A program made the position numbers and the translations under genes. A DNA stretch of 24,760 bases from a virus, in the IMG/VR virus record IMGVR_UViG_3300028835_000998, positions 1-24,760 of that record; one strand, 5' to 3'. The notes beneath the pieces are model-generated. The model saw nothing but the letters and a program-made list of their open reading frames with translations, was not told the origin of the DNA and made no database searches. Below, piece after piece: positions 551 to 9,390 of the stretch (positions are counted from its first letter, which is position 1; every line of letters begins with the position of its first letter).

Positions 551-1660
551 TTAGTGTTTTGGTCTGGGCTGTTCTTCTTTGCCCTCTGGCATTTTCAGTT
601 TGCCCAGATCAGCCTTTTTGGTCATTAACACTTGAAGGTTTTCAGGGACAGATAAAATCCTCTTGGCTTTTTCTAAAGCCTCATTATATTCTTCCTTGCT
701 CTTTCTCTCTAATTCCGTTTTACTGTAAGTGTTGAAAAGATACAAGGACAGGTTGGTCTTGGCGAGCTTGTCGTCTCCAGATGAACTTGGAAAATTGGCA
801 GTCATAAAACCAAAGAATTCTTCCATCGCAATTTGACGTTGATTTTCCTTAATCCTCCAATCTGTTTTCCCGTTATCATCGAACATTTCCTCAGAGGAGG
901 TCTCTGTATCAAGAGCGAAGTGTTTACCACCAAGGTTGAGGAGTTTAATGGTGGGCAGAAAATCTTCAAAGCTTGGGTTGTCAATGCCCTTGCCATCCAA
1001 AACATCGTTGCGGTCCTTTAGAATGTGTGCCCTGTGGACGATTCTTTCTCCAATTTTGGAACCCTCTCCACCTATTTTTAAGCGTTCCATTTCAATTAAA
1101 AGACTGGGTTCGTAACCAAATTCGGACTCAGCCTTCATTTTTGTGCCAATTTTTTCAAGCTTAGATTGTCCGTCCGCATCTTCCTTCTCATTATATTCCC
1201 ACCCAGCACGACCACAAATAATACAATGAAGTGGAGAGTTTATATACCAGTCGGTAAACCGTCCCCATTCTTCTTTGAGTATTCCCCAATCTGGAAAGCT
1301 AATGAAATTACGTCCCTTTTTCTTTTTGTAACTTTGCATGAGATCTTTCCAGAAGGCAGAAATTGAATCAACAATAAGAATATCCGCCTGTTTCTCTGCC
1401 TCTTGACACATGGGAATTAGGTCTTTAAAGGCTCGGCGTTTGGCTACCAAGAGCTTTACCTTTTCCTTTTCAAATCGCCGGATCATAAAGTCTGCACCAG
1501 TTTCGGTGTCTATGAAAAAGACAGGTTTTTTATTGCCCAACATTTTACTCAAACCGATAGCGAAAGAACATGAGGTGTAGGTCTTCCCCGATCCGGCAAA
1601 ACCTAATACGCCTATCTTGGCATAAGCCTGTGCCATTTTTGCTATTTCAAAGAACGCCAT
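551..1660 (-). CDS. Sak4/AAA_24-like RecA-fold recombination ATPase
   Basis: A 369-aa P-loop ATPase. Residues 20-27 (GFAGSGKT) form the Walker A motif, residues 49-57 (FIDTETGAD) a conserved acidic strand, and residues 94-98 (ILIVD) the Walker B strand ending in Asp98. This arrangement is typical of the phage AAA_24/Sak4 group, RecA-core ATPases that act with single-strand annealing or replication. The length is greater than a minimal Sak4 because of a charged C-terminal extension from about residue 270, ending in a Lys/Glu/Pro-rich tail. Translation starts at ATG 1660, which abuts the TAG of the upstream gene; its AGGAGGTGA ribosome binding site lies inside that gene's end, so the two are translationally coupled. 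The family assignment is firm; the exact pathway is inferred. Confidence 0.85.
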   Translation of the reverse strand: MAFFEIAKMAQAYAKIGVLGFAGSGKTYTSCSFAIGLSKMLGNKKPVFFIDTETGADFMIRRFEKEKVKLLVAKRRAFKDLIPMCQEAEKQADILIVDSISAFWKDLMQSYKKKKGRNFISFPDWGILKEEWGRFTDWYINSPLHCIICGRAGWEYNEKEDADGQSKLEKIGTKMKAESEFGYEPSLLIEMERLKIGGEGSKIGERIVHRAHILKDRNDVLDGKGIDNPSFEDFLPTIKLLNLGGKHFALDTETSSEEMFDDNGKTDWRIKENQRQIAMEEFFGFMTANFPSSSGDDKLAKTNLSLYLFNTYSKTELERKSKEEYNEALEKAKRILSVPENLQVLMTKKADLGKLKMPEGKEEQPRPKH

Positions 1661-5138: not shown

Positions 5139-5402
5139 CTATGCTTGATTTATTAAAGCACTTGGTTCAAAACATTCCTTGCAAAGATAAACAGCGACAG
5201 CACAATTATCATGTAACCAATAGTCCCCCTTGCCACCGTTACTTCGTAAATGGCAAATAAATTCTTCAGTTTTAGGTGGAAAATCCTCAAATCCCACAAA
5301 CATGATCCTTGCCTCACCTTTGCACTTATGGCATTCAACGGTTTTGGGAAATTCTTTTTGCCATGATTGTTTTAAGCCCGTTTCTCCTAAATGTATTTTC
5401 AC
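5139..5402 (-). CDS. Conserved phage zinc protein, 87 aa
   Basis: A CHKC pair (residues 24-27) and a CKEC pair (74-77) frame a domain with GKGDYWLHDNCAVAVYLC in its second half. I recall this layout from small conserved phage proteins of unknown function. Translation starts at GTG 5402 with a textbook AAAGGAG site five bases away; no ATG fits. It is the first gene after the promoter at 5446-5473, so it leads a transcription unit. Confidence 0.8.
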   Translation of the reverse strand: MKIHLGETGLKQSWQKEFPKTVECHKCKGEARIMFVGFEDFPPKTEEFICHLRSNGGKGDYWLHDNCAVAVYLCKECFEPSALINQA

Positions 5403-5445
5403 TTTTTCTCCTTTAAAGGGTTAAAGATTTAAAAGCCTAAGTATC

Positions 5446-5473
5446 AATATAGGTGAAGTTAAAACCTTGTCAA
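5446..5473 (-). promoter_or_regulatory. Sigma70-type promoter, minus strand
   Basis: A perfect TTGACA (-35, at 5468-5473) and TATATT (-10, at 5446-5451) are separated by 16 bases. They point at the 5139-5402 gene in a 100-base gap with no open frame. The -10 hexamer and spacing are identical to those of the promoter at 7759-7786. Confidence 0.72.
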
Positions 5474-5505
5474 CCCTATTTTTAGGAAAGATTGACCCTA
5501 TATAT

Positions 5506-5787
5506 TTAATGTCCAAGCTCCTCAAATCTCTTTATGATTTGTTCAAAGAAGTCGGTTATGGGATCAATTACAAAAATACAAAAGAGAATTATTACAACAA
5601 TAATTAAGCCCATAAAAAGCAATTTTGTGTAGCCTTCGGGTTTCATTTTTTCCCTCCATCCTTTTTTCCTTCTTTTTAATTCTTCCCTTTTTTTCTTATC
5701 GCAATCCTTACAAATTCCATGACTAATATCCGGATCGTCTTTATCACCGGAGATATGTTTTCCACACCAAGCGCAAATCGTTTTCAT
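5506..5787 (-). CDS. Zinc-knuckle membrane protein, 93 aa
   Basis: Residues 1-30 hold a four-cysteine zinc knuckle (CAWC at 5-8, CKDC at 26-29). A basic stretch KKKREELKRRKK follows. Residues 56-75 are a single hydrophobic membrane span (LLFMGLIIVVIILFCIFVI), and a short amphipathic tail ends the protein. The basic residues before the span suggest that the zinc domain stays in the cytoplasm. Start is ATG 5787 with a GAGG site upstream. The role is unknown. Confidence 0.8.
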   Translation of the reverse strand: MKTICAWCGKHISGDKDDPDISHGICKDCDKKKREELKRRKKGWREKMKPEGYTKLLFMGLIIVVIILFCIFVIDPITDFFEQIIKRFEELGH

Positions 5788-5796
5788 TTTTTTACC

Positions 5797-6075
5797 TCAT
5801 TTAAGCAAAGGGGGGATTGTATCAATTTCCTTAATCACACTCGAAATACATTCTTTACTTTCCTTTGGATATTCCACAGCGACAATAATCGCCTTCGCAT
5901 CTAATTTTGCCCCTGTCTCCTTGTGTTGCACGGTTATTTCTATGGTGGAACCCAATAAGGTGCGATCCAAGAATCGCTGGGCAATCCTCTTTTCTTCGTT
6001 CTCCGTGAGCATCACCCATTCTGTCGCTGTCCGAATTGTTTGCTTTTTCTTGAAGATTTTTTTCAGTAGTTTCAT
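5797..6075 (-). CDS. Hypothetical protein, 92 aa
   Basis: The N-terminus is very basic (MKLLKKIFKKKQ), which could bind a membrane surface or nucleic acid. A compact alpha/beta domain follows (EEKRIAQRFLDRTLLGSTIEI, DAKAIIVAVEYP). No family is recognised. The ATG at 6075 overlaps the stop of the HNH gene (ATGA), and GGAGGTG precedes it, so it is coupled to that gene. Confidence 0.72.
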   Translation of the reverse strand: MKLLKKIFKKKQTIRTATEWVMLTENEEKRIAQRFLDRTLLGSTIEITVQHKETGAKLDAKAIIVAVEYPKESKECISSVIKEIDTIPPLLK

Positions 6076-6515
6076 TTCACACCTCCTTCGGCTTTGGCTA
6101 TGGCACGCCTTTTATTATGGTAGCATGAGTGTAGACCAAAACCCATTACTTTTAAGTTTTCAAGGTGATTGTCCATTTTATCTCCATTGATATGATGCAC
6201 AACTTGGTGCTGGGTTAGTTCTACGCCTAAAAGTTTTTCAACCAACCACCGATGATACCGCTTGGGTTTTTTTACTCCATTAATCCAGACTCGGCCAGTA
6301 ATATATCCCTTGTTGCTCACCCACCATGATTCGGGTTTTGTTTTTTGGTTCTTCCCGTTATTTGCCCAAGCACAATCTCTTGAGCAATAATGTGATGATG
6401 CTCTCTTTGGTCTAAACATTTTGCCACAGTGTAGACACCTCCGATCGGCGTGTTTCCGGTTTCGACGACCCCAACTATCTAACAATCCCCTCTGTTGTGT
6501 TTGTGCTCTTGGCAT
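6072..6515 (-). CDS. HNH endonuclease, free-standing
   Basis: Residues 27-48 hold a four-cysteine knuckle (CLHC then CSRDC). Residues 107-121 read HHINGDKMDNHLENL, the core of the HNH_3 nuclease family: a His pair, an Asn/Asp turn and a closing NHLENL. I chose ATG 6515 because GGAGGGAACT precedes it. Enzymes of this type cut DNA with a metal ion, often as homing endonucleases between phage genes. No intron or inteins flank it, so it is free-standing. It is coupled to the next gene by ATGA. Confidence 0.88.
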   Translation of the reverse strand: MPRAQTQQRGLLDSWGRRNRKHADRRCLHCGKMFRPKRASSHYCSRDCAWANNGKNQKTKPESWWVSNKGYITGRVWINGVKKPKRYHRWLVEKLLGVELTQHQVVHHINGDKMDNHLENLKVMGFGLHSCYHNKRRAIAKAEGGVK

Positions 6516-6562
6516 AGTTCCCTCCGTTTTTGTTTTTAAGATACCATGCCACAGGCAATAAG

Positions 6563-6832
6563 TCAAGCGTTTATTTTATTTATTATTGTCTCTGCTACAC
6601 CATCGCCTTGCTCTGCTTTTTCTTTGATGTATTTATACATGGAGGGACTTTCGGCGATCAGGCGGGCGTTGGCTTTATGGTCTGTGTGTTTCTCAATAAT
6701 CGGTGTTTCACATATAACCCTACGACTCGTATCGCTTCCCTCCCCTACCACCAGATAGAACACTCCCTTATCAATCGCTCTTGTTCTTTCGTGAAAGTTC
6801 CAAGGTCCCGGTGTGTGTTTTGTCTGTTTCAT
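6563..6832 (-). CDS. HTPGPW / NARLI phage protein, 89 aa
   Basis: The N-terminus carries HTPGPW (residues 6-11), and the middle carries KANARLIAESPSMY, the signature of a very common phage protein family of unknown function. The length is as usual. Start is ATG 6832 with GGAGG ten bases upstream. Many phages encode one or more copies in early regions near recombination genes, as here, but the activity is not known to me. Confidence 0.85.
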   Translation of the reverse strand: MKQTKHTPGPWNFHERTRAIDKGVFYLVVGEGSDTSRRVICETPIIEKHTDHKANARLIAESPSMYKYIKEKAEQGDGVAETIINKINA

Positions 6833-6859
6833 AATGCGACCTCCATAGGTTAAAGGGTT

Positions 6860-7021
6860 TTAGTTAGACGATGGTTCGTCGTCTTGATCTTCTACTATTT
6901 CTCCTGATGTAAAACCTTGTTTTATCAGCTCTGCAATGTGCTCCAAGTCTGTGTCATTTGGTTCGGATTCGATTCTGGGGGGTGTTATTTTCAGTTCCCA
7001 CCATCCTTGTTTTTTAGCCAT
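6860..7021 (-). CDS. Conserved small phage protein, 53 aa
   Basis: The product reads MAKKQGWWELKI, then DTDLEHIAELIKQGFTSGEIVE. The DLEHIAELIxxGxTSGEI pattern is one I associate with small conserved phage proteins. It starts at ATG 7021 with AAGGAAGGTGG upstream and ends in acidic residues. It lies just downstream of the pseudoknot element at 7043-7148, whose state could affect its message. Confidence 0.78.
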   Translation of the reverse strand: MAKKQGWWELKITPPRIESEPNDTDLEHIAELIKQGFTSGEIVEDQDDEPSSN

Positions 7022-7036
7022 AATCCACCTTCCTTA

Positions 7037-7135
7037 TTATAAGAAAAGACACCGGAGGGAGATCGTCCAAGAGGATGCAACACCCCTTATAGAAGCTCCG
7101 GCATCTTTTCGATTTGTTAAAGTTGTGAGTTGCAT
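7037..7135 (-). CDS. Possible 32-aa leader peptide inside a pseudoknot element
   Basis: An ATG at 7135 follows GGAG by nine bases, and a 32-codon frame ends 16 bases before the next gene. The peptide (MQLTTLTNRKDAGASIRGVA at the start) resembles no family. The same bases form a dense set of complementary segments (see 7043-7148), so the sequence may be selected for RNA pairing rather than for the peptide. If translated, it could act as a leader peptide. Confidence 0.4.
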   Translation of the reverse strand: MQLTTLTNRKDAGASIRGVASSWTISLRCLFL

Positions 7136-7148
7136 TTTGACGATCTCC
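7043..7148 (-). promoter_or_regulatory. Three-helix RNA pseudoknot over a translation start
   Basis: On the minus strand three perfect helices interleave. S1 is 10 bp (7139-7148 with 7058-7067), S2 is 7 bp (7129-7135 with 7075-7081) and S3 is two stacked segments of 7 and 6 bp (7104-7110 with 7043-7049, and 7096-7101 with 7052-7057) around a 2x2 loop. S1 contains the ribosome binding site and S2 the start codon of the 7037-7135 frame, so folding would hide both. S3 crosses S1/S2, making a pseudoknot with loops long enough to form. Confidence 0.65.
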
Positions 7149-7159
7149 AGATTAAGGGT

Positions 7160-7420
7160 TTATTTGATTAGTTTAAATGCCACATCTACCATACGTAGCG
7201 GATTCATACTTTCATACTTTGCCCGATTCTCTTTGCTTAGGGCATCATAAACCTTTACAACGGCTGACGCACTGAATAAATCCCAAAATGCCCAGCCTCT
7301 TTTATTCCCACCTTGATGGAATACTTTAACATCATACTGACCATATTCTCCTTTGCGTGGACGTAACAAGTGGCAAGTTTTAGTGTCCACAATCAACCTT
7401 GCGACTTCGATTGATTTCAT
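7160..7420 (-). CDS. Hypothetical protein, 86 aa
   Basis: The product starts MKSIEVARLIVDTKTCHLL and later has GNKRGWAFWDLFSASAVVKVYDAL, a probable alpha/beta domain with no recognised family. I chose ATG 7420 because it carries the same leader, GGAGATCGTCAAA, as the 7135 start. An upstream ATG at 7459 would extend it over the end of the previous gene and lacks a ribosome binding site. The fragment DALSKENRAKYESMN suggests a helical C-terminal half. Confidence 0.75.
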   Translation of the reverse strand: MKSIEVARLIVDTKTCHLLRPRKGEYGQYDVKVFHQGGNKRGWAFWDLFSASAVVKVYDALSKENRAKYESMNPLRMVDVAFKLIK

Positions 7421-7442
7421 TTTGACGATCTCCGGGTAAAGG

Positions 7443-7712
7443 TTAATGATAAGATTCAAACTCTTCTTTTGTATATCCAGCTTCTTGTGGAGTCAAGGTT
7501 GCGACACACTTTTGACTCATTTCAAAATGAGCCGCAACATAAACCCGCTTTTTGTCAAAGGGCTTATTGTCATACGTTGTCAGTGCCATAGACCATTCCA
7601 GTCCGGCGTGTTTTATTAGCACATTATACAAGCCGGTCTTTTTCTTAAAAGCAATTAGCTTGAGGATTGCTTCTTTTTGGATTTCAGGAATGTTGAGTTT
7701 AGTTTGTTGCAT
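7443..7712 (-). CDS. Hypothetical protein, 89 aa
   Basis: The product begins MQQTKLNIPEIQKEAILKL and contains GLEWSMALTTYDNKPFDKKR and a helical C-terminus (TPQEAGYTKEEFESYH). I do not recognise a family. The ATG at 7712 follows GAGGAGATCGGTCCA, a variant of the leader used by the next two starts. It is the first gene after the promoter at 7759-7786. Confidence 0.75.
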   Translation of the reverse strand: MQQTKLNIPEIQKEAILKLIAFKKKTGLYNVLIKHAGLEWSMALTTYDNKPFDKKRVYVAAHFEMSQKCVATLTPQEAGYTKEEFESYH

Positions 7713-7758
7713 TGGACCGATCTCCTCTTTTAAAGGTTCTACTTCTTTTGTCGACTAC

Positions 7759-7786
7759 AATATAATATATATATCGGCATTGTCAA
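7759..7786 (-). promoter_or_regulatory. Sigma70-type promoter, minus strand
   Basis: Perfect TTGACA (7781-7786) and TATATT (7759-7764) are separated by 16 bases within an AT-alternating gap between two genes. It should drive the 7443-7712 gene and those after it. The alternating TA run in the spacer may ease melting. Confidence 0.72.
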
Positions 7787-7799
7787 TAGAAACTTCACC

Positions 7800-8345
7800 C
7801 TATTTTGCATAAACAATATTACCTATTTTTGAGATAGTTTGAGGAATTAATTGCTTACTTACTATAAAATCCCTTCTTCTTTTCATCTTTCTGTGTTTTG
7901 GTGGACGACCCCTTCTATTGCATTTTGGTGGATGGTTTTTCGTATTACAAGGAATACTGTGTGCGCAAAGAATGTTCTTAATTGTTGAGTTAGAACAATT
8001 AAAAATCTTAGCTATCTTCGTCATGGTTATTAGGGATGTTATATACAAATAACAAATATCTATTTGTTGGTCAAAATCAAAGAATGCAAATCCCTTAGGT
8101 CGACCAACCACGTCTCGGTGAAAACTGCAATTACATTTATGGCATACTGGCAAAAGGTTTTCCTTTTTATGGTTTGTTTTGGTTTTATCTATATGATGAA
8201 CCTCGGTAGCTATCCCTCTGCAAACCTGACAGATATGGTTTGCCTTATTCAAAACGACCAAACGATTCTTTTTCAATTCACCATGATTAGGATATTCAGC
8301 AATTCCACCTTTCCACATTGGATTCTTTGCTCCAAAGTATGGCAC
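7800..8345 (-). CDS. HNH endonuclease with C-terminal helix-turn-helix
   Basis: Residues 39-42 (CQVC), 50-53 (HHID) and 68-71 (CHKC) make up an HNH nuclease core with its structural zinc. The opening GAKNPMWKGG is typical of homing-type HNH enzymes. Residues 109-126 (TKIAKIFNCSNSTIKNIL) form a helix-turn-helix, followed by the basic RRGRPPKHRKMKRRR, both likely to bind DNA. The GTG start at 8345 abuts the TAA of the upstream zinc-ribbon gene; a purine-rich GGGGGGAAA serves as its ribosome binding site. An internal ATG at codon 10 is a less likely start. Confidence 0.88.
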   Translation of the reverse strand: MPYFGAKNPMWKGGIAEYPNHGELKKNRLVVLNKANHICQVCRGIATEVHHIDKTKTNHKKENLLPVCHKCNCSFHRDVVGRPKGFAFFDFDQQIDICYLYITSLITMTKIAKIFNCSNSTIKNILCAHSIPCNTKNHPPKCNRRGRPPKHRKMKRRRDFIVSKQLIPQTISKIGNIVYAK

Positions 8346-8456
8346 TTATTTCCCCCCTTTCCACCTATGCCCACACTTGCGACAGACATGGGTTAAATCT
8401 TTTAGGGTATATATCTGTTGACTTTCACACTTCGGACACTTAATTTCTATCTTCAT
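8346..8456 (-). CDS. 36-aa zinc-ribbon protein
   Basis: Two cysteine pairs, CPKC (residues 7-10) and CRKC (25-28), with a trailing CGHRWK, give a minimal rubredoxin-like zinc ribbon. The ATG at 8456 has GAAAGGAGG upstream. It is the first gene of the minus-strand block after the divergent control region and is joined directly to the HNH gene. It might be a nucleic-acid-binding accessory factor, but this is a guess. Confidence 0.75.
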   Translation of the reverse strand: MKIEIKCPKCESQQIYTLKDLTHVCRKCGHRWKGGK

Positions 8457-8476
8457 GTTTTCCTCCTTTCTATTCT

Positions 8477-8482
8477 ATTATA
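8477..8482 (-). promoter_or_regulatory. Probable -10 element, minus strand
   Basis: A perfect TATAAT on the minus strand lies eight bases before the ribosome binding site of the 8346-8456 gene. No good -35 hexamer is present at 16-18 bases; the nearest is a weak TTCAAA at 19. If active, it gives a very short leader and may need an activator. Confidence 0.45.
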
Positions 8483-8507
8483 CGCACACCCACACACGTT
8501 GTTTGAA

Positions 8508-8531
8508 TTATTTTAATCTTTTTTAAAATAA
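8508..8531. promoter_or_regulatory. Inverted repeat between divergent promoters, possible operator
   Basis: TTATTTTAA (8508-8516) and its exact complement TTAAAATAA (8523-8531) flank a six-base spacer. The site sits between the minus-strand -10 (8477) and the plus-strand -35 (8535). This is a suitable place for a repressor operator or an AT-rich UP element; a chance AT palindrome is also possible. Confidence 0.45.
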
Positions 8532-8534
8532 ATC

Positions 8535-8562
8535 TTGACATGATTTGAGAAAGTGCTATTCT
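8535..8562 (+). promoter_or_regulatory. Sigma70-type promoter, plus strand
   Basis: TTGACA (8535-8540) and TATTCT (8557-8562) are 16 bases apart. The start of transcription should fall near 8568-8570, exactly where the leader pseudoknot begins. It is the likely promoter for the replication gene at 8686 and perhaps the whole plus-strand block. Confidence 0.68.
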
Positions 8563-8564
8563 AA

Positions 8565-8665
8565 GGATGCAATGACTATCTTAATGAAAATACCTGACAA
8601 AAACAAGCTGGTGAGTAGGATAATCCCCTTTATGGTCATTGCTCCGAAAACCGGCTTGTTTTGTC
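8565..8665 (+). promoter_or_regulatory. 5'-leader pseudoknot of the plus-strand transcript
   Basis: Two helices interleave in the untranslated leader. Helix X pairs 8569-8576 with 8635-8642 (8 perfect bp), and a bulged extension pairs 8565-8567 with 8643-8645. Helix Y pairs 8596-8611 with 8651-8665, 15 bp with one bulge and a U-G pair that fits only the plus strand. The loops are 19, 23 and 8 bases, so an H-type pseudoknot is sterically reasonable. It starts at the predicted 5' end of the transcript and ends 20 bases before the start codon, as for an attenuator, protein-binding leader or 5'-end protector. Confidence 0.6.
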
Positions 8666-8685
8666 TTTAAGGAGGGGGGAGAGGG

Positions 8686-9390
8686 ATGTCCCTAAAAAGA
8701 TACCATAGTCCACAGCAGGCAAAAGACCGATATTATGGAGCGTTGAGCTTTCCTGCCCGGTGTATGTTTAATGCCCTAATAAATTTGGCTGACGATGAAG
8801 GTTTTTTTCAGGCAGATGCAAGTTACTTGCAAGGAGAATGTTTCCCATACGACAACTTTACCATAGAAAAAGTCAAAAAACTACGTGAAGAGGTGCAAAA
8901 AGTTAAAGAAGATCGTCCAATGTTGCTCATTTTCACCTTAAAAAATGGCCAAGTTGTTGAGGAGTTCGGCTGGCTACCTCAATGGTTCAAGCATCAAGCC
9001 ATACCCGATTACCCTAAAGTTTCGGATATAGCTAACCTATTAATACAAAAGAAGATAATCAAACCAAACTTCAACGGAGGCATTCACCAGAAAGTAAGGA
9101 GAATGCAAGACAAACGCAAGCTTGCAAGATCCTTGCATCCTACTTCTATAGAGAGGTATAAGAGAAGTAGAATAGAAGAGAAGAGAAGTAAGGGGAAAAC
9201 TGATTTTTCTTCTTCTTCTTCTCAAAGTCAAAACCAAACTCATTGCGAAAGGGAGAAAACACACAACACCAAATACGAACCCGGCCCCAAATTCTGCTTT
9301 CCCGGATGTGGAAAGCCGATGGCCGATGAGGGAGATAATTGGTTCTGTGTAGACTGTGGAATTAGAAAGCCAAAAAAAGAGGTGAAATGA
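8686..9390 (+). CDS. Replication-initiator-like protein with C-terminal zinc ribbon
   Basis: Residues 15-115 match the winged-helix pattern found at the N-terminus of many phage replication (replisome organiser) proteins: a FNALINLADDEGFF segment (28-41), FPYD (53-56), a KKLREEV helix, then EEFGWLPQWFKHQAIP (92-107). A low-complexity Ser/Gln/basic linker (about 145-195) leads to a zinc ribbon (C204, C208, C221, C224). The ribbon may contact a helicase or DNA. Start is ATG 8686 after a long GGAGGGGGGAGAGGG tract. The family call is moderate because no helicase loader is seen nearby. Confidence 0.6.
   Translation: MSLKRYHSPQQAKDRYYGALSFPARCMFNALINLADDEGFFQADASYLQGECFPYDNFTIEKVKKLREEVQKVKEDRPMLLIFTLKNGQVVEEFGWLPQWFKHQAIPDYPKVSDIANLLIQKKIIKPNFNGGIHQKVRRMQDKRKLARSLHPTSIERYKRSRIEEKRSKGKTDFSSSSSQSQNQTHCEREKTHNTKYEPGPKFCFPGCGKPMADEGDNWFCVDCGIRKPKKEVK

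Follow-up and report, generated by a model that had tools for sequence, protein, structure and literature searches.

Genomic context of the element

The DNA analysed here, hereafter called the window, is a stretch of 24,760 nucleotides, positions 1 to 24,760 of the IMG/VR virus record IMGVR_UViG_3300028835_000998. On its minus strand, four small genes or frames with starts at 7712, 7420, 7135 and 6832 are each preceded by a leader of about 30 nt with the pattern AACCTTTAA-n-GGAGRTCG-n-ATG. The start at 7021, which lies between 7135 and 6832 and is unrelated, does not carry this shared leader. The structured element that is the subject of this work occupies positions 7148-7043 and begins within the leader of the frame at 7135. 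The surrounding features are the following:

7759-7786, minus: promoter-like TTGACA-16-TATATT ahead of gene 7712, a match to the consensus only
7706-7738, minus: leader copy of the gene at 7712, the top-scoring partner of the antisense segment S2b-S1b (described below) among 107 start sites
7418-7444, minus: leader copy of gene 7420, sharing 16 identical nt with the leader of the element
7160-7420, minus: upstream gene, 86 aa when read from the leader-associated ATG
7133-7159, minus: the element's own leader copy, ACCCTTAATCTGGAGATCGTCAAAATG
6860-7021, minus: downstream gene, 53 aa, with its ribosome binding site about 10 nt past helix S3
6830-6858, minus: leader copy of the gene at 6832

The 16 nt shared by the leader at 7420 and that of the element are GGAGATCGTCAAAATG (7433-7418). 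When the same patterns were applied throughout, full leader copies were found around the element only, four in the window and two in the related 41.7-kb virus record IMGVR_UViG_3300024433_000003 (L018), where they belong to a gene starting at 6890 and to the element. A partial copy, AACCCTTTAAAGGAG, is present at 5421-5388 (minus) ahead of the gene at 5402. The block of leader-sharing cassettes is flanked by two genes for HNH endonucleases on the minus strand (window 6075-6515 and 7803-8345). A second promoter-like site with the same hexamers, TTGACA-16-TATATT, is located at 5473-5446 (minus), and both such sites (7786-7759 and 5473-5446) lie just ahead of genes with a CCTTTAA-type leader. At the place in L018 that corresponds to the site ahead of gene 7712, a weak TTGCAT-16-TATATT falls under the threshold of the promoter scan. 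Gene 7712 and its L018 counterpart 6890 are probably the first genes of their operons, a position that we infer rather than read directly because of this sub-threshold site.

The neighbouring genes gave little indication of function. The leading genes matched nothing in Pfam and had only a weak PHROG hit of unknown function, no ssDNA-binding protein match was found for the 53-aa downstream gene, no RNA-binding protein was recognised among the neighbours, and nearby genes gave no hint of a ligand. IMG/VR contained no relatives of the upstream gene. The downstream gene does have relatives, though distant ones, and no such element occurs in the DNA upstream of them. In one of the records (L006), the homologous gene (start at 843) is preceded by a structured RNA that differs from this element, namely a Flavobacterium-1 RNA at 565-686, plus strand (RF02976, 115.9 bits).

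Architecture of the element

The first-pass annotation of this DNA had described three interleaved helices on the minus strand, with S1 covering a ribosome binding site, S2 covering the ATG of a 32-codon frame and S3 crossing both. Direct reading of the minus strand confirmed this arrangement. The helix S3, given as a split 13-bp helix, consists of 13 Watson-Crick and two G-U pairs and hence of 15 continuous pairs in RNA, and a fourth helix, S4, is present in addition. The parts of the element in the order of transcription are:

7139-7148, minus: S1 5' strand, GGAGATCGTC, holding the Shine-Dalgarno sequence of the leader copy (S1, 10 bp)
7037-7135, minus: 32-codon open frame, MQLTTLTNRKDAGASIRGVASSWTISLRCLFL, with its stop just ahead of the ribosome binding site of the next gene
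7129-7135, minus: S2 5' strand, ATGCAAC, holding the start codon of the 32-codon frame and identical in L018 (S2, 7 bp)
7111-7128, minus: unpaired linker, TCACAACTTTAACAAATC, conserved in 16 of 19 aligned columns
7096-7110, minus: S3 5' strand, GAAAAGATGCCGGAG (L018 counterpart GAAAAGGCAGACCGG)
7083-7088, minus: S4 5' strand, AAGGGG (the hairpin is retained in L018 as AGGGA/TCCCT)
7075-7081, minus: S2 3' strand (S2b), GTTGCAT, the anti-start sequence in the apical loop of S4
7069-7074, minus: S4 3' strand, CCTCTT
7058-7067, minus: S1 3' strand (S1b), GACGATCTCC, the anti-Shine-Dalgarno sequence of the shared leader (L018 TACGATCTCC)
7043-7057, minus: S3 3' strand, CTCCGGTGTCTTTTC, with a U-rich end

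Since S3 links the loop of S2 to sequence beyond S1, it crosses S1 as well as S2 and the topology is that of a true pseudoknot. The strands of the four helices have no bases in common, except that the 3' strand of S2 forms the loop of S4, which thus shows the anti-start GUUGCAU in the window and in L018. The unpaired linker, ACTTTAACAAAT in the 7128-7111 reading, is among the best-conserved stretches and resembles the leader motif AACCTTTAA.

S3 and S4 together were computed at -26.8 kcal/mol in the window and -29.4 kcal/mol in L018, and S1 and S2 together at -22.4 and -22.9 kcal/mol. Each of these pairs of helices is stable, and the two use different strands for pairing, so that both can be present at once in a kissing pseudoknot or one can replace the other. 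The nested minimum free energy fold of the element alone had a z score of -2.8.

So much complementarity had been judged unlikely to arise by chance, and a null model bore this out. An arrangement with S1 of at least 9, S2 of at least 6 and S3 of at least 11 pairs occurred seven times, overlapping hits included, in 40.9 Mb of first-order random sequence with the dinucleotide make-up of the window. In the window itself it was found at this site only and on the minus strand only, and the site also passed the stricter 10/7/13 setting.

Conservation and covariation in a related phage

A terminase search yielded few close relatives of the window. L018, whose terminase is 91% identical, retains the element at about 80% identity (6667-6565, minus), while the flanking genes on both sides have no detectable similarity between the two phages. 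The element is therefore conserved on its own. The ribosome binding site of the downstream gene is likewise conserved in L018, although the gene there differs.

Covariation in related phages had been proposed as a check of the structure, and in the comparison of these two natural sequences, both metagenome-derived virus records, all 37 compared pairs were retained: 26 were unchanged, four had changed on one side, seven had changed on both sides and none was broken. When the 18 substitutions that separate the two sequences at paired sites were scattered randomly over these sites, all pairs were kept in none of 200,000 simulations. In S1, the L018 strands GGAGATCGTA and TACGATCTCC carry a compensating change from C-G to A-U, whereas S2 is identical in both phages. 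S3 is internally rewritten from GAAAAGATGCCGGAG/CTCCGGTGTCTTTTC in the window to GAAAAGGCAGACCGG/CCGGTCTGTCTTTTC in L018 and still has 15 pairs; here the comparison was guided by the helix with its outer ends aligned, sequence alignment alone places a 2-nt indel at this position, and the pairing is kept either way. G-U pairs number three in the window (two in S3, one in S4) and one in L018 (in S3). On the opposite strand each would be an A-C mismatch, which favours minus-strand RNA over DNA as the conserved entity. Together, the two sequences support a conserved minus-strand RNA structure that would cover a ribosome binding site and a start codon.

The frame that starts at this codon is open through the element in both phages and stops just before the downstream ribosome binding site in both. 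Owing to indels, 48 of 97 aligned positions are out of frame between the window and L018, and the encoded peptides are 34% identical, so that selection appears to act on the nucleotides and not on the peptide. Homologues that keep the peptide and lose the base pairs had been named as the finding that would speak against the structure. The opposite was seen: the sole homologue, L018, keeps every pair and not the peptide. The earlier proposal of a hidden ribosome binding site and start of a 32-codon gene is thus supported as far as the structure covering both signals is concerned, but the element is not simply the leader of that gene.

Searches for homologues and known RNA families

Neither in the window nor in L018 did the element give a gathering-score match to a family of Rfam 15, and the C4 model (RF01695) did not match within 6950-7250 even at E<=10. 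In IMG/VR and in 84,980 prokaryote genomes, scans returned, besides L018, only chance matches in which S1 or S3 was lost; these scans used exact patterns, by which diverged homologues can be missed. The phage and plasmid record collections contained nothing relevant, and the terminase relatives other than L018 had no match to the element, several of them not covering the region. An HDV-like ribozyme layout, considered on account of the topology, was rejected because the linker lengths do not fit and no Rfam match exists.

Complementarity to the shared leader

The leader closed in S1 and S2 belongs to the leader family, and the 3' half of the element is therefore antisense to the leaders of its neighbours as well. 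We scored the antisense segment S2b-S1b against all start sites with a Shine-Dalgarno-like motif. The best partner in the window was the leader of gene 7712 (first of 107, -26.9 kcal/mol) and in L018 that of gene 6890 (first of 84, -27.5 kcal/mol; next best -20.9). The element lies downstream of both genes. Shuffled versions of the segment reached a best value over all starts of -23.3 +/- 2.3 in the window, so that the observed value is within their range, and -20.9 +/- 2.1 in L018, where the observed pairing stands out more strongly. With a longer antisense segment, gene 7712 ranks second in the window. The leaders are copies of each other, which accounts for part of the complementarity in trans, and an apparent action in trans may simply reflect leader duplication.

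Co-folding restricted to nested structures gave a net gain for the S3/S4 domain with the leader of the leading gene (-6.7, -9.7) and almost none with the element's own leader; this gain, part of which is tail pairing no better than that of shuffles, comes from a program that cannot represent the pseudoknot, and we do not rely on it. Two further candidate pairings were discarded. A third antisense block, in which the U-rich tail would pair to the leading gene's 5' UTR, was equalled by 1823 of 2000 shuffles in the window and 145 of 2000 in L018, and a 10-bp match of the S3 5' strand to the start of the element's own downstream gene in L018 is absent in the window.

Proposed mode of action and alternatives

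With moderate confidence, we propose that the element is a translational control RNA which shuts its own leader and may in addition repress the leading gene of the operon in the manner of C4. As a regulatory RNA it would belong to a phage operon of the early type. In the minus-strand mRNA, S3 and S4 would form a strong hairpin domain that displays the anti-start loop GUUGCAU and the anti-Shine-Dalgarno strand GAUCUCC, segments that would base-pair with GGAGRTCG...ATGCAAC of the shared gene leader. Pairing in cis would close the leader copy directly upstream, giving the pseudoknot, blocking ribosome entry and gating read-through to the next gene. The leader of the leading gene could be bound by the same half as well, which would then act as a C4-like antisense brake. 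The sequence and its helices, their covariation, the conservation between unrelated genes, the shared leader and the computed complementarity are observed, whereas formation of the pseudoknot in the cell, control of translation and the leading gene as a target are inferred. More speculatively, the element may be a self-targeting antisense module whose molecule also contains a decoy of the leader it targets, closed as a kissing pseudoknot. Processing or translation would free the antisense half, which would then silence exchangeable cassettes sharing the leader; such a module would represent an undescribed class of phage RNA.

The main rival is a translational gate that works in cis only, which we regard as possible though rather less than probable. 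The closed leader and the short frame would then form a leader ORF, and the likeness to the other leaders would be due to duplication only. Once the leader opens, ribosomes would melt S3/S4 and terminate at a stop that precedes the next start codon by 12-15 nt, and coupling would switch on the downstream gene. The position of the stop in both phages and the conservation of the downstream ribosome binding site next to a non-conserved gene agree with this. However, the predicted folds do not clearly sequester the downstream Shine-Dalgarno sequence, a frame of such length that is open in both phages is only modestly unlikely, and the peptide is not conserved.

We consider it unlikely that the element is an operator for a phage or host RNA-binding protein that recognises the shared leader, with the pseudoknot as a high-affinity site as for T4 gp32. 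The occurrence of the leader family before several genes, the strong conservation of the unpaired linker ACUUUAACAAAU and the use of a leader pseudoknot by T4 gene 32 (PMC3014915) are in line with such a site, but it need not be complementary to the leader, and the neighbouring genes include no recognised RNA-binding protein. A role at the DNA level, as a recombination, replication or cassette-exchange site with a folding single strand, would suit the location between unrelated gene cassettes in both phages; it is quite improbable given that the element begins with a translation leader and that four pairs across the two sequences are G-U in minus-strand RNA and A-C mismatches on the other strand. 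Hardly credible are a chance origin of the complementarity within one sequence, which the L018 homologue with its covariation and the rarity of the arrangement largely refute, and an over-read transcription terminator, which the U-rich end of S3 might suggest but which leaves S1, S2 and S4 unexplained. A scan for intrinsic terminators (short-loop GC stem followed by a T run) found none in 5400-8700, its 8-nt loop limit being one that would exclude the 38-nt loop of S3.

Comparison with known systems

In RBS-sequestering riboswitches and ribosomal-protein leaders, a pseudoknot hides the RBS or AUG. The element resembles them in this respect and differs in that it matched no known class of Rfam 15.

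In cluster K mycobacteriophages, a conserved leader including the Shine-Dalgarno sequence (SAS/ESAS) is repeated before several non-structural genes, in some cases with inverted repeats, which did not support RNA pairing (PMC3203893). The repetition of a Shine-Dalgarno-containing sequence within a few nucleotides of starts is common to both systems, with four leaders in the window and two in L018. The consensus sequences differ (GGGATAGGAGCCC for SAS, AACCTTTAA-n-GGAGRTCG here), and in our case the pairing covaries and an antisense partner is present.

Only a small number of phage mRNA pseudoknots are known to act in translation. That of T4-type gene 32, which binds gp32 and is located some 67 nt 5' of the start codon, is possibly the only viral example in translational autoregulation according to a 2010 review (PMC3014915). 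It is the nearest known phage case of an mRNA pseudoknot in translational control. Here, in contrast, the helices themselves, three to four in number, cover the ribosome binding site and the start codon, and the 53-aa product of the downstream gene has no match to an ssDNA-binding protein.

In its predicted way of working, the element appears closest to the C4 antisense RNA of phages P1 and P7 (RF01695), which displays in loops segments complementary to the RBS region of the phage's own mRNA (Citron & Schuster 1990, via PMC12197685) and is accompanied by extra target-like copies, the "c4-a1b1" motif (PMC2864571). In the same way, S2b-S1b is complementary to the RBS of the mRNA of its own operon (gene 7712, L018 6890) and to its own leader, and extra target-like copies are present in both systems. 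In C4, these copies lie upstream of c4. By the tests possible the element is not a member of the C4 family: the C4 model does not match it, no antirepressor gene was recognised among the leading genes, and the target copy is directly joined to the antisense half, which results in the pseudoknot. By pairing with a leader common to exchangeable cassette genes, such an element would offer control of newly acquired small genes at the RNA level.
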